Assembly: GCF_022808815.1 (NCBI RefSeq)
Contig: NZ_JAKZLC010000001.1
Span: 310,001-374,000 of the forward strand
Origin: Geothrix paludis
GTDB taxonomy: Bacteria > Acidobacteriota > Holophagae > Holophagales > Holophagaceae
DNA length: 64,000 nucleotides
Reading direction: 5' to 3'
This document shows, piece after piece, positions 4,518 through 16,301 of this stretch. How positions within the stretch are numbered: the stretch's first letter is position 1; the number at the start of each line of letters is the position of its first letter. The translations under genes and the position numbers were made by a program. The notes beneath the pieces were generated by a model. That model had not been told where the DNA came from, made no database searches, and saw nothing but the letters and a program-made list of their open reading frames with translations.

Positions 4518-5453
4518 TCATCCACCGGATCGGGGATGGAGCTGATCGTAGAGTGCCCTCAGCCTCGCCTGGTGGACGTGAGTGTAGATCTGGGTCGTGC
4601 TGATGTCGGCGTGGCCGAGCATGGCCTGGACGGCGCGGAGGTCGGCGCCGTGGTCGAGGAGGTGCGTGGCGAACGCATGGCGGAGCACGTGTGGACTCAC
4701 GGCCTCAGCGCGAAGGCCCGCGGCGCGCGCGTAGCCCTTCAGCAGACGCCAGAGGTGCTGGCGCGTGAGGCCCTCGCCCCGCTGGCCCACGAACAGTTCC
4801 ACTCCTTTCGGCTTGAAGCCGGGGCGCAGCGCCAGCCAGGCGCGGATCCAGTGCTCGGCGCCCGCCCCGAAGGGGATCAGGCGCTCCTTGCGGCCCTTGC
4901 CCATGACCTTGAGGAAGCCCTCGTCCAGGAACACGGACAGGGCCGGGAGCTCGGCCAGCTCGGACACGCGCAAGCCCGAGGCGTAGAGCAGTTCCAGCCA
5001 GGCGCGGTCGCGCACGCCCAGGGGGGTGGTGGTGTCCGGCGCCTGAAGCAGGGCCTCCACCTGGCTTTCGCCCAGGGTGCGGGGGAGGATGCGGGGGGGG
5101 CGTGGCGGCTTGACCACCGCCTCGGGACCGGCCCCCTCGCCGCCTTCCATGCGCAGGAAGGACAGGAAGGCGCGCAGACTCGAACTCAGCCGGGCCAGGC
5201 TGCGCGGAGCCTTGCCCTCGGACTGCTGGGCCACCAGGAAGACCGTGAGGTGGTCCCGCGTGAGATCTGTGGGGGAGACCTCCCGGCCGCAGGCCCAGGC
5301 GGCCAGATGGTTCAGGTCCGAGAGGTAGCCCGAGGCCGTGTGGGGTGAAAGTCCCCGCTCCACCGCGAGGAAGGTGCGGAACTCCCGCAGGCTGGCGCCC
5401 CATCCCAGGGGCCATCCATGTTCGGGTTCTTCAAGGGTCTTGGGGCGGGGCAT
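4518..5453 (-). CDS. xerD: Tyrosine recombinase XerD
   Basis: 311 residues, the normal XerD length. An N-terminal SAM-like core-binding domain (residues 15-100, with FLAVERGLSPHTASGYLSDL) precedes the catalytic domain. The catalytic set is visible: R in ASGLRVSELAEL, K in GKGRKERLIPF, HxxR in HVLRHAFATHLL, H in MLGHADISTTQ and Y in IYTHV. The GADLRAVQAMLGHADISTTQIYTHV stretch (abbreviated) is XerD-like rather than XerC-like. With XerC it resolves chromosome dimers at dif during division. A second Xer recombinase of XerC character lies at 40321, so the pair is complete within this window. The start ATG at 5453 excludes an unrelated upstream extension. Confidence 0.88.
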   Translation of the reverse strand: MPRPKTLEEPEHGWPLGWGASLREFRTFLAVERGLSPHTASGYLSDLNHLAAWACGREVSPTDLTRDHLTVFLVAQQSEGKAPRSLARLSSSLRAFLSFLRMEGGEGAGPEAVVKPPRPPRILPRTLGESQVEALLQAPDTTTPLGVRDRAWLELLYASGLRVSELAELPALSVFLDEGFLKVMGKGRKERLIPFGAGAEHWIRAWLALRPGFKPKGVELFVGQRGEGLTRQHLWRLLKGYARAAGLRAEAVSPHVLRHAFATHLLDHGADLRAVQAMLGHADISTTQIYTHVHQARLRALYDQLHPRSGG

Positions 5454-5534
5454 GGGTCCATCCTCCACGGCCCTGGTCCCGGCGCAATCCTTCTGCCGGC
5501 GTCGGGGAGGGAGACGGGTGTCTTTACTCCGGGT

Positions 5535-5563
5535 TTGGACAACGGGGCAGGGGTGTGTTAGGG
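5535..5563 (+). promoter_or_regulatory. Possible acpP promoter
   Basis: TTGGAC, a 17-bp spacer and TTAGGG lie 29 bases before the acpP start. The -10 match is weak, but the position between xerD and acpP is right. Confidence 0.28.
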
Positions 5564-5591
5564 TTTCCAGGTTCGTTTGGAGGAGCCCACG

Positions 5592-5831
5592 ATGGCTGAT
5601 GTGCGTAAGAAGGTCATTGCGATCATTGCTGAGCAGCTGGCCAAGCCCGAAGATTCCATCTCCGAATCCAGCCACTTCGTGGACGACCTCGGCGCCGACA
5701 GCCTCGACACCGTCGAGATCATCATGGCCATCGAAGAGGCCTTCAGCCTCGAGATCCCCGAGAGCGAGCAGGAGAAGATCCGCACGGTGGGCGATGCCAT
5801 CGCCTACATCGAGAAGCACGCGAAGGCCTGA
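5592..5831 (+). CDS. acpP: Acyl carrier protein
   Basis: A 79-residue acidic protein. It carries the DSL motif in LGADSLDTVE; Ser37 is the attachment point for 4'-phosphopantetheine. It carries growing acyl chains in type II fatty acid synthesis in the cytosol. The start ATG at 5592 has an AGGAG ribosome site 6 bases upstream; an earlier in-frame ATG at 5577 lacks one and adds residues not found in the family. fabF follows, the usual acpP-fabF pairing. A terminator-like hairpin lies between them, which may let acpP be made in excess over FabF. Confidence 0.97.
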   Translation: MADVRKKVIAIIAEQLAKPEDSISESSHFVDDLGADSLDTVEIIMAIEEAFSLEIPESEQEKIRTVGDAIAYIEKHAKA

Positions 5832-5846
5832 TCCATCGCGATCGTG

Positions 5847-5890
5847 ACGTGCCGCAGCGCCCCCACGGCCCTGCGGCACGTTTGTTTTCC
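5847..5890 (+). terminator. Terminator-like hairpin between acpP and fabF
   Basis: ACGTGCCGCAG pairs perfectly with CTGCGGCACGT around a 13-base loop, followed at once by TTGTTTT. This has the form of an intrinsic terminator or attenuator. It ends 18 bases before the fabF start, so partial read-through is likely. Confidence 0.75.
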
Positions 5891-5908
5891 GTTCCAAGAG
5901 GTGAATCC

Positions 5909-7162
5909 ATGACCAGGACCGTCCAGCGTCGCCGCGTCGTCATCACCGGCATGGGGACCATCAACCCCTGCGGCCTCACCGTGCCCGAAACCTGGGACAA
6001 CCTGTTGGCGGGGAGAAGCGGCATCGGCCCCATCGACCGCTTCGACGCCACGGACTTCGCCTGCAAGATCGCGGGGCAGGTGAAGGGCTTCAACCCCGAT
6101 CCCTTCATCGACAAGAAGGAACAGAAGAAGATGGACATCTTCATCCAGTACGCCCTGGGCGCCGCCCATGAGGCGTGGGTGGATGCCGGGTTCGATCAGG
6201 TGCAGCTCACCAAGGCCGAGCGTGAAGTGTTCGGCGCGTATATCGGCAGCGGCATCGGCGGCCTCAGTACCATCTGGGACGAGGCCAACGGCTACCGAGG
6301 GCCCCGGCGCACCAGCCCCTTCTTCATACCCAGCCTCATCGTGAACATGGCCAGCGGCCAGGCCAGCATCAAGTACGGCCTGCAGGGGCCCAACAGCGCG
6401 GTGGCCACCGCTTGCGCCACGGGCGCCCATGCCATCGGCGACGCGGCCCGCCTCATTGCCTTCGGCTATGCGGATCGCATGATGGCCGGCGGCAGCGACT
6501 CCGTGGTGAACCAGCTCGGCGTGGGCGGCTTCGCCGCCATGCGGGCCCTCAGCACCCGCAACGACGAGCCCGAGCGCGCCTCCCGGCCTTTCGACGTGGA
6601 CCGTGACGGCTTCGTCATGGCCGAGGGCGCCGGCATCGTCATCCTCGAGGAGTACGAGCTGGCCAAGGCCCGGGGCGCCAAGATCTACGCCGAGGTCGCC
6701 GGCTATGGCATGAGCGGCGACGCCAACCACATCACCAGCCCGGCCCCCGAGGGCGAGGGTGGCCAGCGTGTCATGCGCGCGGCCATCAAGGATGCGGACA
6801 TCGCGCCCGAGGAAGTGGGCTACGTGAACATGCACGGCACCAGCACGCCCGTGGGCGACAAGCTGGAGTGCATGGCCATCCAGAAGGTCTTCGGCGACCA
6901 CGCGAAGAAGATCAAGGTGAGCAGCACCAAGTCCATGCACGGGCACCTGCTGGGCGCCGCCGGCGGCCTGGAGACCATCGTCGCCGTCATGGCCGTCAAG
7001 ACCGGGAAGATCCCTCCCACCATCAACGTGGACCACCAGGACCCCGAATGCGACCTGGACGTGACCGCGAACGCGGCGGGCAAGCTGGACTCCGAATACG
7101 TGATGAACAACGGCTTCGGCTTCGGAGGCACCAATGGGTGCCTGATCCTGCGGAAGGTCTGA
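5909..7162 (+). CDS. fabF: 3-oxoacyl-[acyl-carrier-protein] synthase II
   Basis: 417 residues, the standard length for KASII. The thiolase-fold catalytic triad is visible: Cys in VATACATGAHAIGDAARL, His in NMHGTSTPVGD and His in HGHLLGAAGGLE. The glycine-rich C-terminal NNGFGFGGTNGCLIL loop is also present. FabF condenses malonyl-ACP with acyl-ACP to extend fatty acids. The start ATG at 5909 has an AAGAGG ribosome site. The gene sits directly after acpP, its carrier substrate. Nothing in the sequence suggests a polyketide rather than fatty-acid role. Confidence 0.95.
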   Translation: MTRTVQRRRVVITGMGTINPCGLTVPETWDNLLAGRSGIGPIDRFDATDFACKIAGQVKGFNPDPFIDKKEQKKMDIFIQYALGAAHEAWVDAGFDQVQLTKAEREVFGAYIGSGIGGLSTIWDEANGYRGPRRTSPFFIPSLIVNMASGQASIKYGLQGPNSAVATACATGAHAIGDAARLIAFGYADRMMAGGSDSVVNQLGVGGFAAMRALSTRNDEPERASRPFDVDRDGFVMAEGAGIVILEEYELAKARGAKIYAEVAGYGMSGDANHITSPAPEGEGGQRVMRAAIKDADIAPEEVGYVNMHGTSTPVGDKLECMAIQKVFGDHAKKIKVSSTKSMHGHLLGAAGGLETIVAVMAVKTGKIPPTINVDHQDPECDLDVTANAAGKLDSEYVMNNGFGFGGTNGCLILRKV

Positions 7163-9819: not shown

Positions 9820-12366
9820 CTAGCGAAGCCCTTCGTAGAGGTAGAGCTCGGACAGCACCCGGCGGTAGGCGTAGGCATAGCCCCTGGCGTCCGGCGTGAG
9901 GAGGAAGTTGCTGACGGTCATCCCCGCGAGGTCTTCCGGGGCGATCTCCAGAAGCTTCTTCCGGGCGCCGGTGATGAGGTCGAGGTGCGTCACGGTGCAG
10001 GGCATCTCATGGAGGTCCACCACCCATAATCCCTTGCCATCGGGTGCCCACCGGACCACCCGTTCCAGGGGATGAAGGCCCGGGATGGGTTGGGACTTGC
10101 CGTCCTCCAGGGAGAGGATCCGGTCCTCCTGCTCGCTGATGCGGGTGGTGATGCGGCGCCCGTCCGGGCTGATGGGCTGCCCGAAGAACTGGTACCCCGG
10201 CGCGGTCAGGGACTCCGCTGGCCGGCCGTCCAGGGGGATGGCGAAGAGCCGGGTTCCCTCGCCGGAACGGTTGGCCTGCACGAGCAGGCGGCGGCCATCC
10301 GGGAACCAGCGCAGGCGGTGGATGGTCTCCAGGCCGGAGGAGGCTAGGGTCAGGACCTCCCCGGCCCCCGTCGGGAAGATCTGGATCTTGTTGCGGGTTC
10401 CGGGAGCGAGCGCCGCCACCCGGTGTCCATCGGGGCTGAGGATGGGGTAGGCGCCCTTGGCCAGCCGCACCGCCGGGCTTCCATCCGTCTTCCGCAGGTA
10501 GATGTCGTACTGGATTCCCGAACCTTCACCCTGCTCGTTGAAGATGAGGGTGGACCCGTCCGCGGAGAGATCCTGCACTAGGGACCAGTCCAGCCAGGAG
10601 AGCTCGCGTTCGCGGTCGGCGCCGGGCCGCAGGCTCTGGATGCCCGTGCGCATCACCTCCTTGGCGAGGAGCACGCGGCGCCCGTCGCGGGAGATGTCAT
10701 GGAGCGTGAGGGGGGCGGGCACATTCAGGACGAGCCGCGGTTCGCCTGAGCCGACGGCATAGAGGCCCCTGGCCACGCCGTGAGTGGCGGCCGTGAACCA
10801 GACCTCGTTTCCCTTCCAGGCCAGCCCCTGGATGCTGGGCCAGGCGCCGGTTAGGGGATGGCGGTTCCCCTGCCGGTCCACCACAACGGGATAGCCGGCA
10901 TCGTCTCCGGACACCGGATGCTCCAGGTAGGCGACCCGATCGCCCTTGGGCGAGACCCTGGGATGGCTGATCCATCCGGACGATTCGGCGATGGGGTGTC
11001 CCAGCGGGAACTCGAGGCGGGCCTTGCCGTCCGCGTTGCGGACCACCAGCAGCTCGGATCCGTCCGGGCTCCAGTCGGCGGCCACCACCTGCTCCATCAG
11101 GGCCCTCGGGGCGCCTCCCGCCAGGGGGACCACCCCCAGGGTGCCCCGCCACATCCAGCTCTGGATGGGGCGGCTGCCCAGGGCGATGGCGAGCTCCCCG
11201 GTGCGGGAGAGGCCCAGGAGATCCGCTTCGGGCAGCTCAAGGGTGCGGCTCTCGGGGCTGTCGGGGCGGGTGGAGTGGACCATGAGCGGTCCGCCAGACC
11301 AGGCGGCGCTGTAGAGCACCTCCTGGCCATCGGGGCTCAGCCGCGCGTTCCGGATCAGCCCCTGCCGGAAGGTGAGCCGCTTGAACGTGGGCGGTTCCCG
11401 GTGGTCCAGATGATGGCCGAGGCCGAAGCCCAGGCCTCCCAGGACCAGCGCGAGGGCCACCCAGCCCACCCGGCCCTGGAAGATCCGGGCCAGCCCCTGG
11501 AGCGTCACCCCCTTGCGCTGGAGCGCCGCCAGGCGCGACGCCAGCTGCTGGGCCGTGGGGAGGCGGTCTTCCGGATTCTTCTCCAGGCAATGCTTCAGGA
11601 GGTTGATGAGCTCGGGCGAATAGGGGCTGGGGGACGCGGTCCGCATCGGCGGCTCATCCTTGAGGATGGCGTTGAGCACTTCCACCGGCGACTCTCCGGA
11701 GAAGGCGCGGCGGCCGAACAGCATTTCGTACAGCAGAATGCCGCAGACGAAGAGGTCGGCCCTGGGATCCACCTCCCGCCCCCGGATCTGCTCCGGAGCC
11801 ATGTAGCCGACGGTGCCCATCATGGTTCCGACCTGGGTCTGGTGGCTCGTCTCGGGGCGCTGGATCAGGGTCTGCTCATCCAGCAGGGTCGGGAGCGCCT
11901 TCGACAGGCCGAAATCCAGGATCTTGAGGCGGCCGTCCGTGGTGATGAACAGGTTCCCCGGCTTCAGGTCGCGGTGGATGATCCCCCGCTCGTGGGTGGC
12001 GGCCAAGCCAAGGGCCAACTGGTGGGCCAGGTCCATGGCCTCATCGGGCGGGAGGGCCCCGCGCAGCAAGCGCTCATGGAGGGTCTCGCCCTCGAGGAGC
12101 TCCATGGCGATGTAGGGTGTCGCGCCTTCCGTGTCCCACCCGTAGATCGCCGGAAGGGCGGGGTGCTCGATGGCCGCCAGGGTCCGCGCCTCCTGCTGGA
12201 AGCGGGCCAGCCGCTCGTCGGCCTGGGCCGAGGCATGCCCCAGGACCTTGAGGGCCACGGGGAGCTGGGTGCGGGTATCCAGGGCACGGTAGACCTGCCC
12301 CATGCCGCCCAAACCGAGGGGAGACTGGATCTCATAAGGGCCAAGCCGGGTTCCGGGCGGGAGCAT
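9820..12366 (-). CDS. Membrane Ser/Thr protein kinase with C-terminal TolB-like propeller
   Basis: 848 residues. The kinase domain spans residues 11-275: glycine loop GLGGMGQVY, ATP lysine K40 in VALKVLG, catalytic loop HRDLKPGN (Asp133), DFG at 151-153 and GTVGYMAPEQ in the activation segment. A single transmembrane helix (VGWVALALVLGGLGFGLG) follows near residue 300. The remaining 530 residues contain repeated SPDG-type blades (LSPDGQEVLY, WSPDGSELLVV, SPKGDRVAYLE, SPDGHRVAAL, SPDGRRITTR) typical of TolB/WD40-like propellers. The sensor would face the periplasm and the kinase the cytosol. This architecture is common in Acidobacteriota. It lies 65 bases downstream of the M64 peptidase gene on the same strand. 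The ligand and phosphorylation targets are unknown. Confidence 0.9.
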   Translation of the reverse strand: MLPPGTRLGPYEIQSPLGLGGMGQVYRALDTRTQLPVALKVLGHASAQADERLARFQQEARTLAAIEHPALPAIYGWDTEGATPYIAMELLEGETLHERLLRGALPPDEAMDLAHQLALGLAATHERGIIHRDLKPGNLFITTDGRLKILDFGLSKALPTLLDEQTLIQRPETSHQTQVGTMMGTVGYMAPEQIRGREVDPRADLFVCGILLYEMLFGRRAFSGESPVEVLNAILKDEPPMRTASPSPYSPELINLLKHCLEKNPEDRLPTAQQLASRLAALQRKGVTLQGLARIFQGRVGWVALALVLGGLGFGLGHHLDHREPPTFKRLTFRQGLIRNARLSPDGQEVLYSAAWSGGPLMVHSTRPDSPESRTLELPEADLLGLSRTGELAIALGSRPIQSWMWRGTLGVVPLAGGAPRALMEQVVAADWSPDGSELLVVRNADGKARLEFPLGHPIAESSGWISHPRVSPKGDRVAYLEHPVSGDDAGYPVVVDRQGNRHPLTGAWPSIQGLAWKGNEVWFTAATHGVARGLYAVGSGEPRLVLNVPAPLTLHDISRDGRRVLLAKEVMRTGIQSLRPGADRERELSWLDWSLVQDLSADGSTLIFNEQGEGSGIQYDIYLRKTDGSPAVRLAKGAYPILSPDGHRVAALAPGTRNKIQIFPTGAGEVLTLASSGLETIHRLRWFPDGRRLLVQANRSGEGTRLFAIPLDGRPAESLTAPGYQFFGQPISPDGRRITTRISEQEDRILSLEDGKSQPIPGLHPLERVVRWAPDGKGLWVVDLHEMPCTVTHLDLITGARKKLLEIAPEDLAGMTVSNFLLTPDARGYAYAYRRVLSELYLYEGLR

Positions 12367-12431
12367 GGGAGTGGGAAGATTGTGGCTTTGATTAAAGAAT
12401 AATCCAAGCCGAACTTCCAGACCCGCGTCCG

Positions 12432-13814
12432 CTATTTTGCGTACTGCCGGATGACCCGCTCGATGGCGGCCCGGCACGCGGCGCAGAACCCGACCTCGTC
12501 GCGGGTGAACATGAGGCAGTCCTCCTGGCTTCGGAAGTAGCCCTTGGCCTCGTAGTTGGCGCCTTCGAAGGCGCCCACCTTCCCGCTGTGGGCGTCGGTG
12601 CCCAGGAGCTTCGTCTCGAAGACCTTCTCCCGCGCGAAGAGGGCGTCCATCTCGGACTCGGGCTTGTTCGCGGCACGGATGGCGCGGCGCTCCTTCTGGT
12701 AGGCGTGGCTGTGCGCTTCGAACTCGTCCTTCTTCCAGGGGGAGGGCAGGGGCACCCCGGGGCTGAGGAGGGCGCCCCACTTGGGCTGCTTCGGGTTGGC
12801 GGTGACGTTGGGCTCCCAGGGCTCCGGCCGCTCGGGGCTGTTGGTGACGGCCACATCGGAGGTGTAGTACTCGTCCGCCAGGCCCGCGAAGTGATGGCCG
12901 AACTCGTGCACGAACAGGTAGCCGATGGTGCTGTTGCCCGCGGAGGCTGTGCTGTAGAGGTTGTGGATGCCGCCGCCGCCGTAGGTCTCGGCATTGACGA
13001 GGATCTCCACGAACTCGTAGGGCGCCTGGGCGGCGACGTCGCGCCAGGTGCGGTTGTCGAAGGTCAGGACGTAGCGCTCGCTGCCGAAGGCGTCGTAGGT
13101 GGCGCCGAGCGGAGAGCGCTTGTGGACACCGGTGGAAGGCCGGGAGATGCCGCTCTCCTTCGCGGGCGGGCAGAGGGCCCACACGTTGAAGTCATTGCGA
13201 TGCTCCTTGAAGGGCGTCTGCTGGAAGAGCAGCTCCATGACCTTGCGCGCCTGCTGCTCGAACTTGCCGCGCTCCGCGGCCGTGTAGCCGTCGCCCAGGA
13301 TGAGGAAGTCCACCTTGTCCGCCGGATCGCCGGCCTTCTGGAGGGCGATGAGGGCACCGGCGTCCGGGGCGGGGGCCCGCTCGATGAGGGGGTCCTTCGG
13401 ATCGAGGTCGAAGGCCCAGAGGGTGCGGAAGGCGTTCCGGGCATCCCGCTTCTTCACCTGGACGCGCACCGGGGCCTCGGGCTGGGGGAAGCGCAGGGAT
13501 TCGGAGAAGCTCCGGCTGAGGGCCTTCGCCTCGTCCGTGGTCTCCCACTCGCCGAAGATGCTGGCGAAGCCACGGGAGTAGAGGAGCTTCCCCGTCGCTT
13601 TGTCGGCCACCTCGAAGCAGTACTTCCCGAGGTTGCTGTCGTCTAGGGCCTTGGCGAGGTCACCGGGCCAGGGCAGGGGCTCCAGCACCACGCGGTCCAC
13701 CCCGAAGCGTTCCGAGGCCGCATCCCCGGTGTGGCCGTAGTCCACCCGCAGGGTGCGGGGCGGGGCAGCCAGGCAGGCCAGGGCCGTGAGGGAGAACAGC
13801 AGGCGACGGATCAT
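12432..13814 (-). CDS. Exported M64 (IgA peptidase-like) zinc metallopeptidase
   Basis: 460 residues. The signal peptide is at 1-17 (LLFSLTALACLAAP). An N-terminal beta domain covers about 20-140. The peptidase M64 domain begins with FLILGDGYTAAER. The zinc site HEFGHHFAGLADE is at residues 303-315: two histidines and Glu of HExxH plus a downstream Asp in the metzincin-like third-ligand region. Cysteines near the C-terminus (FCAAC) could form a disulfide after export. M64 peptidases were first defined by a bacterial IgA protease, but most relatives are environmental and of unknown substrate. It is upstream of the Ser/Thr kinase gene on the same strand, so co-transcription is possible. Confidence 0.88.
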   Translation of the reverse strand: MIRRLLFSLTALACLAAPPRTLRVDYGHTGDAASERFGVDRVVLEPLPWPGDLAKALDDSNLGKYCFEVADKATGKLLYSRGFASIFGEWETTDEAKALSRSFSESLRFPQPEAPVRVQVKKRDARNAFRTLWAFDLDPKDPLIERAPAPDAGALIALQKAGDPADKVDFLILGDGYTAAERGKFEQQARKVMELLFQQTPFKEHRNDFNVWALCPPAKESGISRPSTGVHKRSPLGATYDAFGSERYVLTFDNRTWRDVAAQAPYEFVEILVNAETYGGGGIHNLYSTASAGNSTIGYLFVHEFGHHFAGLADEYYTSDVAVTNSPERPEPWEPNVTANPKQPKWGALLSPGVPLPSPWKKDEFEAHSHAYQKERRAIRAANKPESEMDALFAREKVFETKLLGTDAHSGKVGAFEGANYEAKGYFRSQEDCLMFTRDEVGFCAACRAAIERVIRQYAK

Positions 13815-13859
13815 GGGGGCACCTCGCCTTCGAGGATAGACTGGTCCGTGGAGATCCAA

Positions 13860-14159
13860 ATGCTCAGCTCGAAGCAGCGCCAGTTCCTCAAGGCCGAGGC
13901 CCATCACCTGAAGCCCGTCATGCATGTGGGCAAGGGCGGCGTGTCGCCGGCCCAGGCCGCGGAGCTGGACGTGATGGTGGACAGCCTCGAGCTGGTGAAG
14001 ATCAAGATCAACCAGAACAGCTTCGAGGACGAGGCCTCGGCCGCCGCGGCCCTGTGCGCCGCCGTGCCGGGGCTGGAACATGTCTGGACCATCGGCCACA
14101 CCATGCTGTTCTTCCGGCCCAGCCGCACCCACGACACGCGGTATCCTTTGCCCGCCTGA
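13860..14159 (+). CDS. yhbY: YhbY-family (CRM domain) RNA-binding protein
   Basis: 99 residues, the usual length of a stand-alone CRM domain. It begins with LSSKQRQFLKAEAHHLKPVMHVGKGGVS (in part), including the GKGG loop that binds RNA. It continues with LVKIKINQNS, the second family landmark. YhbY associates with pre-50S ribosomal subunits and helps ribosome assembly. The start ATG at 13860 has GGAG 7 bases upstream; the open frame further upstream is antisense to the M64 gene's start. It is divergent from the peptidase gene, with 45 bases between. Confidence 0.9.
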   Translation: MLSSKQRQFLKAEAHHLKPVMHVGKGGVSPAQAAELDVMVDSLELVKIKINQNSFEDEASAAAALCAAVPGLEHVWTIGHTMLFFRPSRTHDTRYPLPA

Positions 14160-14204
14160 TCCGAGCCTGGCACGCACCCCGAGGAGCCCGCAGAAGGAGT
14201 TCCG

Positions 14205-16301
14205 ATGCCCTACTTGTCATGGATGGAGGGGAGCCAGCCCTTCAGGCATGCCGTGGTGGAGGATCCCTGCGTCCTGGGCCGCGATTCCCTGGCCAGCGCC
14301 GTCGCGCAGCCGGCCCTCGGCACCGTTTCGCCGGCCCATGCGGCCCTGACCCTCTTGGGTGGCGTGTGGCATGTGAGGGATCTGGAATCGGCCAATGGCA
14401 CCATGCTGAACGGGGTTCCGGTGGACCCTTCCCAGGCCCACCCCCTGAAGAACGGGGACGAGCTGGTCCTCGGCTCCTGGCGGATGTCCTATACGGAGGG
14501 GTTCCCTGGGCTGGATGGGGTCACCTTCGCGGAACGGGTGGGAGACCTCTTCGACGAGATCCGGCTCCACCCGGAACGGGGCGACTGGTGCTTCGCCGAT
14601 CTGCAGCAGCTCTACCTCGCCACGGAGAGGCTGCTGGCGGAGGTGGATTCGGGCGACCTGGAGAGGGCGCTCCTGGAGGAATCCCTCCGCCTGACGGCAA
14701 GCGACCGTGGGTTCCTGGTCCTGCGGCACGAGCCGGGCGGCTGGCGCGCCGTCCACCATGTGGGTGCGGACGCGGCCGGGACCGTGCCGCCGCCTTCCGT
14801 CCTGGACTACGTGGCGAGGGAACACACGGCGGTCCTGTCCAATCAGCCTTCGGCGGACCCGAGGTTCGAACGGGCCGATCCGCTGGAGGCCGGGCCCGGC
14901 CCCTTCCTGTGCGCGCCCCTGAGGGTGGAGGGCCACGGCGTCTGCGCCTTGTACCTGGAGCGCGAACCCGGCGGGCGGCCCTTCAGCCGCCTCGAGCTGG
15001 CCACCCTCCAGGCCTTCTCCCGCCGCGGGGCCCTGGTGATCCACCAGGCCCGGCTCCAGCGGCGGGCCATCGACCAGGCGGAACAGCAGGGGGAGCTGCT
15101 GCGCCTCCGGAGTCAGGTGCAGCGCGCCGAGGAATGCCGGGGCGAGCTGTTCGCGGCCATGGCCGCGTCCTTTCGGCGCATCCAGAGCTGTGTCCAGGAG
15201 CTGCCCGAGGCGGCCGGCGGGGTTATCCGGTTCCAGCTCGAGCGGCTGTTCACCCTGCTGGACCAGGGCCCTTGCGATGACCCGGGCGGCGTGGCGGGCG
15301 GCCATCCCTTCGCTCTGGCCGCCCTGCAGGAGGAACTGGCCGGGCGCTGGGCCCCGCTCCTGGCCCTCCGCCAGGTCGAGTGGAGGGTCGCCCCGCCGCC
15401 GGACGGCGCTGCGTGGTGGCCGGAAGGTCCGCTTCTCCAGGCCCTGGACGGCCTGGTCGAGCCCCTGATCATGCAAGTGCCCCGCGGGGCCGAGGTCGCC
15501 CTCCAGTGGGAGCGCGAGCCGGGGTACCACGTGCTCAGGATCAGCCTCCCCGCCGTGGGGCGGAGCCCTGCCGACGGCTGGAGCCAGCGGGTCCTGAGGG
15601 AAGCGGGCCTCCGGTGGCGCTGGACGGACCGGGCGCTGGAGGTGCTCCTGCCCGAAGGGCCCGAGGACATGCCGGAGGAGCCCGCTCGGCCCCTCCTGGG
15701 CCTGGTCAGTGAAGACCTGGGCCTGGTGAGCCTGTTCCAGACGGTGGCCGAAGCGGGGGACCTGACGCTCCACCCCCTGGAGGCCGAGCCGCCCGCCCCG
15801 CCCCAGCCGATGTACCGGTTCCTGGTGATCGACGCCAAGGGCGACCAGGAGCCCGAAGGCACCATCCGCGCCTACCGGCGCCATCCGTCCTTCGCCACCA
15901 CGCCCATCCTGGTGGTCCGCTGCTCGGACGAGGACACGCAGCGCCTCATGGAAGCCGGCGCCACGGATTGGCTCGCCGACGGATTCCGCTGGGAGACGCT
16001 CCACCAGCGCCTCCGGGTTTTGCGGGGCCACACGGAGCTGAGGCAGAGGGCCCTGGCGGCCGAGCGCCTGGAATCGTTCCGCCAGATGGCCGGCACCCTC
16101 AAGCACGAAATCAACAACCCCCTGGCGGTCATCTCGATGCAGGTGGAGATGCTCCAGCGGAAATACCCCGAGGAGGCCAAGCTCGCCAAGATTGGCGAGA
16201 TGGTCGACCGCATCCAGGGCTTGGTGCAGGTGCTGCAGAGGATGCGGGAGACGCCCACGGAGGGCTATGCGGACGGGTCGAGCATCCTGAAGCTGGGGTA
16301 G
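14205..16301 (+). CDS. FHA-GAF-pseudokinase-receiver-DHp signalling protein
   Basis: 698 residues with an unusual domain order. Residues 1-95 are an FHA domain (LGRDSLASAV, then VRDLESANGTMLNG), which binds phosphothreonine. Residues 125-285 look like a GAF domain (ALLEESLRLTASDRGFLVL, then FLCAPLRVEGHGVCALYLE). A coiled stretch follows near 290-320. Residues 330-490 resemble a degraded histidine-kinase ATPase (LLQALDGLVEPLIM). Residues 540-615 resemble a degraded receiver (FLVIDAKGD, GATDWLADGF). At the very end, an H-box with His634 in LKHEINNPLAVI forms a dimerisation domain with no ATPase domain after it. It probably relays Ser/Thr-kinase signals into a two-component-like output; this is inference. 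Confidence 0.75.
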   Translation: MPYLSWMEGSQPFRHAVVEDPCVLGRDSLASAVAQPALGTVSPAHAALTLLGGVWHVRDLESANGTMLNGVPVDPSQAHPLKNGDELVLGSWRMSYTEGFPGLDGVTFAERVGDLFDEIRLHPERGDWCFADLQQLYLATERLLAEVDSGDLERALLEESLRLTASDRGFLVLRHEPGGWRAVHHVGADAAGTVPPPSVLDYVAREHTAVLSNQPSADPRFERADPLEAGPGPFLCAPLRVEGHGVCALYLEREPGGRPFSRLELATLQAFSRRGALVIHQARLQRRAIDQAEQQGELLRLRSQVQRAEECRGELFAAMAASFRRIQSCVQELPEAAGGVIRFQLERLFTLLDQGPCDDPGGVAGGHPFALAALQEELAGRWAPLLALRQVEWRVAPPPDGAAWWPEGPLLQALDGLVEPLIMQVPRGAEVALQWEREPGYHVLRISLPAVGRSPADGWSQRVLREAGLRWRWTDRALEVLLPEGPEDMPEEPARPLLGLVSEDLGLVSLFQTVAEAGDLTLHPLEAEPPAPPQPMYRFLVIDAKGDQEPEGTIRAYRRHPSFATTPILVVRCSDEDTQRLMEAGATDWLADGFRWETLHQRLRVLRGHTELRQRALAAERLESFRQMAGTLKHEINNPLAVISMQVEMLQRKYPEEAKLAKIGEMVDRIQGLVQVLQRMRETPTEGYADGSSILKLG

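Follow-up and report, generated by a model that had tools for sequence, protein, structure and literature searches.

Proteins that have a HisKA (DHp) domain and no HATPase are a recognised, little-studied kind. SMART held 1,556 of them among 42,417 HisKA proteins, about one in 27, and the HE/DxxN/T motif was present in 711 of these 1,556 (PMC3591291). A 2018 archaeal survey stated that experimental studies of such REC-HisKA proteins did not exist (PMC5847659). Phosphate transfer by degenerate kinases is known from PhyT and ChpT (PMC5898713, PMC3433190), and in ShkA of Caulobacter, an active kinase, c-di-GMP is bound by the pseudo-receiver (PMC7010744). The literature on FHA/GAF histidine kinases, or on the gene described here in Geothrix, yielded nothing specific. 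As far as we searched, neither the architecture of this protein, nor its tandem of a dead kinase and a live DHp, nor its clean natural deletion, nor its Lys signature has been described.

The window (the whole 64,000-nucleotide stretch of DNA analysed; G000:C1:310001-374000) belongs to a 3.4 Mb genome of Geothrix (Holophagaceae, Acidobacteriota). The frame at 14205-16301 of the forward strand is open throughout, with the stop codon ending at 16301, and encodes a protein of 698 aa with the order FHA, GAF, a degenerate DHp-CA-receiver module, an intact DHp and a short tail. A Shine-Dalgarno-like AAGGAG (14194-14199, forward strand, within GAAGGAG) was found ahead of the ATG at 14205, and the promoter and terminator scans gave nothing beyond the chance level. 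This ORF is a real gene, conserved across Holophagaceae. The named relatives were Geothrix, with G. terrae as the nearest (97%), and 45 full-length orthologs, from those found across the family, were used for the residue counts. Divergent full-length orthologs (L231 and L232, 38-40% identity) were found in metagenome-assembled genomes labelled Proteobacteria and Acidobacteria (SZAS), showing that the family reaches outside the genus Geothrix. The ortholog was broken into two frames in two other metagenome-assembled genomes (L043 of G024, 4875-6834, and L233), and these may be either real pseudogenes or assembly errors. A second FHA-GAF protein of the same genome (G000:C2:153358-154155) matched residues 37-295 at 28%.

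The FHA domain (residues 1-100; 14205-14504, forward strand) was detected by Pfam at residues 23-90 (5e-13), and the fold match of its AlphaFold model in VIA-align had a Z of 17.5. The phosphothreonine-binding residues of the GR...SxxH...NG pattern were present; G25, R26, S42 and H45 were kept in 45/45 orthologs and N69 in 44/45. The GAF domain (residues 148-282; 14646-15050, forward strand), which runs into a long helix in the model, corresponded to GAF_2 at residues 150-279 (8.5e-9), with a fold match of Z 15.8 obtained in the same way.

No Pfam model matched residues 290-610, and HATPase and Response_reg were absent by Pfam in all 45 full-length orthologs, each of which had FHA, GAF and HisKA. 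Since the plain Pfam and NCBIfam searches gave no Pfam match for this region, profile-profile and fold comparisons were used. When aligned by hhalign to profiles of the genome's own proteins, residues 283-490 matched the DHp-CA profile with a probability of 91% (E 1e-6) and residues 492-615 matched the receivers with a probability of 80% (E 1.5e-5). The best of 40 column-shuffled controls reached 1.0% (DHp-CA) and 1.7% (receiver), and the FHA and GAF segments gave a probability of at most 1% against both profiles. The AlphaFold pLDDT was 81 for the whole protein and 86 for residues 300-491. The fold search with the whole model was swamped by FHA, GAF and REC, and for this reason the dead kinase part was folded separately. 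Its model was a helical hairpin followed by a CA sandwich, and VIA-align matched it to the CA domain of ThkA (Z 13.7, rmsd 2.6, 126 residues aligned) and to DivL (Z 13.3, 186 residues aligned), the latter being among the top fold matches together with RetS. The modelled receiver matched KdpE and CpxR (AlphaFold and VIA-align, Z 15.8 over 115-121 residues).

According to these profiles and models, the middle of the protein contains every part of a hybrid kinase module, arranged in the normal order DHp-CA-receiver and present as degenerate folds. The initial annotation had proposed an FHA-GAF-pseudo-ATPase-pseudo-receiver-DHp protein with the reverse of the usual order, to be checked by profile searches of each segment. 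Its list of domains was borne out, FHA, GAF and HisKA by Pfam itself and the ATPase and receiver only by profile-profile and fold comparison. However, it had overlooked the degenerate DHp ahead of the CA-like stretch, and the supposed reversal is in fact a module of normal hybrid order to which an intact DHp was added.

The degenerate DHp (residues 300-354; 15102-15266, forward strand; hhalign and DHp-CA fold) has apparently been deprived of the H-box turn that carries the His, an event that we infer in its exact form from one profile alignment, in which the His-bearing HELR turn of the kinases faces a 4-residue gap. In the degenerate CA/ATPase domain (residues 362-488; 15288-15668, forward strand; hhalign, model, fold and residues) the N-box Asn pair was replaced by G416 in 45/45 and by P420 in 40/45 orthologs, and the AlphaFold model was devoid of a lid helix. 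The degenerate receiver (residues 495-612; 15687-16040, forward strand; hhalign, fold and residues) retained an invariant D543 and the acidic residues at 503-504, and had R572 in place of Thr and E/D592 in place of Lys. Because of the gap at the His turn, the loss of the N-box, the missing lid helix and the replaced Lys and Thr of the receiver, the module looks catalytically dead.

The terminal DHp is an intact helical hairpin (residues 617-683; 16053-16253, forward strand; Pfam, model and conservation), matched by Pfam HisKA at residues 626-675 (1e-7). Its His634 (codon 16104-16106, forward strand) lies within KHEINNPLA, a HExxN motif that was invariant in 45/45 orthologs, including H634, E635 and N638. 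The initial annotation was right in placing this H-box at the C-terminal end with no ATPase after it: His634 is followed by only 64 residues, with no HATPase in them, and the stop at 16301 leaves no continuation of the gene that could encode one. The last of these residues form a conserved tail, PTEGYADGSSILKLG (16254-16298, forward strand), predicted to fold into short strands, in which Y688, G691, S693 and I694 were invariant. Mean pairwise identity among the orthologs was highest for the terminal DHp (82%), as compared with the degenerate receiver (67%), GAF (59%), FHA (54%), the degenerate CA (44%) and the dead DHp (40%). A HATPase was found beside 31 of the 32 HisKA domains of the genome, as paired by their coordinates, and the terminal DHp was the sole exception. 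The protein therefore lacks the HATPase_c that a histidine kinase requires after its DHp, and has the conserved His in a HisKA domain and the missing HATPase that define the 'HisKA, no HATPase' kind.

The succession of sensors and a C-terminal, His-bearing, HATPase-less HisKA is that of the 'HisKA, no HATPase' or incomplete kinases (P2CS; PMC5847659; PMC3591291), but here a dead hybrid kinase and a receiver precede the DHp, the conservation is family-wide, the His is preceded by Lys, and the tail is fixed. As a kinase descendant with a dead ATPase and a presumably live, phospho-accepting DHp, it might work like Spo0B, ChpT and PhyT; in these proteins, however, the dead CA comes directly after the live DHp, whereas in our protein the dead CA goes with another DHp, itself dead, that comes earlier, and only the 15-residue tail follows the live one. 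The direct connection of receiver and DHp through a helix recalls LvrB and other Rec-controlled kinases (Rec-DHp-CA; weak match at residues 601-664), although in this case the receiver is degenerate and CA is absent after the DHp. The N-terminal FHA on a hybrid-kinase framework resembles the EspA-type FHA histidine kinases of Myxococcus, which gave the best NCBIfam match (1.1e-8), but there is no working kinase here, a GAF was recognised by Pfam, and the scores for EspA and EspC (33.7 and 22.4 bits) were below the equivalog cut-offs of 1400 and 1200. The degenerate receiver within a hybrid kinase is also a feature of ShkA (6qrj was the top Foldseek match), which unlike the present protein retains an active kinase.

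A short version of the protein (376-385 aa) was found in four Geothrix genomes, G. fermentans, G. campi, G. oryzisoli and G015. Residues about 295-612 had been lost in frame, and the GAF helix joined the DHp directly. The four genomes branched together (SH support 0.89) inside the genus, indicating that the loss of the dead module is derived and is most simply explained by one late deletion. Within this clade pN/pS was 0.16 for the DHp versus 0.41-0.48 for FHA and GAF; the catalytic His, the Glu and the Asn at His+4 of the DHp were kept, and key residues of the FHA were eroded (R26S, S42A, N64G/Q). The dead module is dispensable, and what must be kept is the DHp rather than the FHA or the dead kinase. 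The loss of the dead kinase and receiver and the strongest selection falling on the DHp together point to the DHp as the output. The gene is a family-wide case of an ATPase-less HisKA that comes with a natural deletion experiment, and the short version (378 aa, in cultured Geothrix) offers a small system for studying the role of such a DHp.

The reading that we prefer, and to which we give an even chance, is that the protein is a non-kinase phosphatase or phosphotransferase that acts on receivers in trans and is gated by FHA and GAF; we infer how it acts on receivers, which way the phosphate flows and what the signals are. The ancestor would have been a hybrid histidine kinase with FHA and GAF whose kinase activity was later lost, the first DHp, the ATPase and the receiver persisting merely as folds. 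The added C-terminal DHp, the sole intact two-component element, would dimerise, and its His634 and HExxN motif would work on phosphorylated receivers of other proteins, either removing the phosphate, as a phosphatase or sink, or handing it on by phosphotransfer in the manner of Spo0B, ChpT and PhyT. FHA, by binding phosphothreonine, and GAF, by binding a small ligand, would gate the DHp via the long helix, and the dead kinase and receiver would serve as an optional allosteric spacer. Against this reading, DHp domains isolated from their CA may be weak enzymes, and a purely structural partner surface could give the same conservation.

Other LKHEINNPL proteins found in a search of the genome collection had REC-DHp (L244, L251 and L254), GAF-DHp (L246) and membrane-DHp (L245, L247-L250 and L253) architectures. 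When 396 Acidobacteriota genomes were scanned without a filter, one PAS-DHp protein (L285) and 33 Holophagaceae matches were obtained, the latter one per genome and taken as orthologs from their family and position. ATPase-less DHps of the LKHEINNPL type with differing inputs occur in several phyla; Pfam found HisKA without HATPase in the scanned representatives L244, L246, L248, L251 and L285, and the HisKA scores of two further proteins, L175 and L171, were under the curated cut-off. Among the matches listed, 10 of the 11 non-ortholog LKHEINNPL proteins with readable ends stopped 62-80 residues past the Lys-His start, the exception (L252) being a full kinase, while 30/30 AHEINNP proteins extended over 200 residues further, like full kinases, and a DxGxG motif was present in 29 of them. 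The LKHEINNPL set had been chosen by its similarity to this DHp. Lys did not precede the His in any of 29 other HisKA domains whose H-box was read. This signature may help annotators to tell real kinases apart from such proteins, which often bear the label of histidine kinase.

In trees of 63-74 columns the ATPase-less DHps clustered with an SH-aLRT of 92 when the H-box was included, they were still grouped when it was masked (2 label changes versus about 14 in shuffled data), and the hypothesis of one clade was not rejected (p-AU 0.49); with only 63-74 aligned columns, a single clade is tentative. The REC-DHp protein L244 sits between a hybrid kinase, with overlapping frames, and a second kinase, and the REC-DHp protein L175 lies directly downstream of a kinase, an adjacency to complete kinases that fits a relay role. 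Holophagaceae also have an ATPase-less REC-DHp family of about 245 aa (L171-L174, L176, L179 and L180), with the H-box AHELAQPL, the tail YITKPYAxGRILDL and a weak Pfam HisKA match. This family aligned with our protein across receiver, DHp and tail, for which reason it is plausible that an FHA-GAF kinase and a REC-DHp protein became fused and that the kinase subsequently decayed. It is conceivable, though somewhat doubtful, that the terminal DHp represents a multi-phylum lineage of ATPase-less DHps not separated before, with LKHEINNPL, a short tail and varying inputs, specialised for acting on receivers in trans, and that such a module took over a Geothrix kinase, which decayed afterwards. The inputs of that lineage would, just as tentatively, be FHA-GAF, REC, GAF, PAS and membrane helices.

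It is unlikely that a separate CA protein or a heterodimer kinase phosphorylates His634 and that the DHp then feeds a response regulator. The H-box keeps E635 beside the His, and the CheA3/CheA4 pair and the EnvZ domains split in vitro are precedents for such an arrangement (PMC3591291). However, all 31 other HisKA domains have their own ATPase, the Lys before His634 differs from the usual A/S of kinases, and the nine unpaired HATPases that we read were LytS-like sensors, RsbW-like proteins and atypical kinases, with no obvious stand-alone CA among them. We also see little probability in a DHp that only dimerises or that inhibits another kinase, as RetS does with GacS, its His634 never being phosphorylated. 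The resemblance of the dead kinase part to RetS and DivL would agree with such a role, and the conservation of tail and surface hints at a fixed partner, but neither the orthologs down to 45% identity nor the short clade show any change in the His, the Glu or the Asn at His+4, residues that a mere scaffold could do without.

The initial annotation had suggested a possible bridge between one- and two-component signalling, with the FHA as a link to Ser/Thr phosphorylation and a membrane Ser/Thr kinase nearby. A precedent for FHA histidine kinases with links to Ser/Thr kinases is EspA of Myxococcus. The neighbouring kinase, with a PD40 propeller, is indeed present 1.8 kb away (9823-12402, reverse strand), behind an M64 peptidase; in two relatives (L034 and L046) the M64 gene is directly beside uvrB and the kinase is missing from this place, so that it was rejected on synteny as a conserved partner. 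The FHA residues kept in 45/45 orthologs make a link to Ser/Thr phosphorylation possible, but that the FHA binds this autophosphorylated neighbour and hands the signal to the DHp is very improbable, because the kinase is divergent, separated by another gene and not conserved in its place, and because the clade that retains the DHp loses the FHA residues.

The gene nearest upstream, at 45 bp, is yhbY (CRS1_YhbY RNA-binding, Pfam 8e-21; 13860-14159, forward strand), and the other neighbours are the M64 peptidase, in divergent orientation, and a 5-FTHF cyclo-ligase, in convergent orientation. This arrangement was largely kept across the genus, where no two-component gene was found as a conserved neighbour at the locus, and consequently no cognate receiver can be named. 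The M64 peptidase ORF (12435-14177 of the window, reverse strand) is too long by about 120 codons, which run antisense to yhbY, and its likely start, with the signal peptide MIRRLL, is near 13814.
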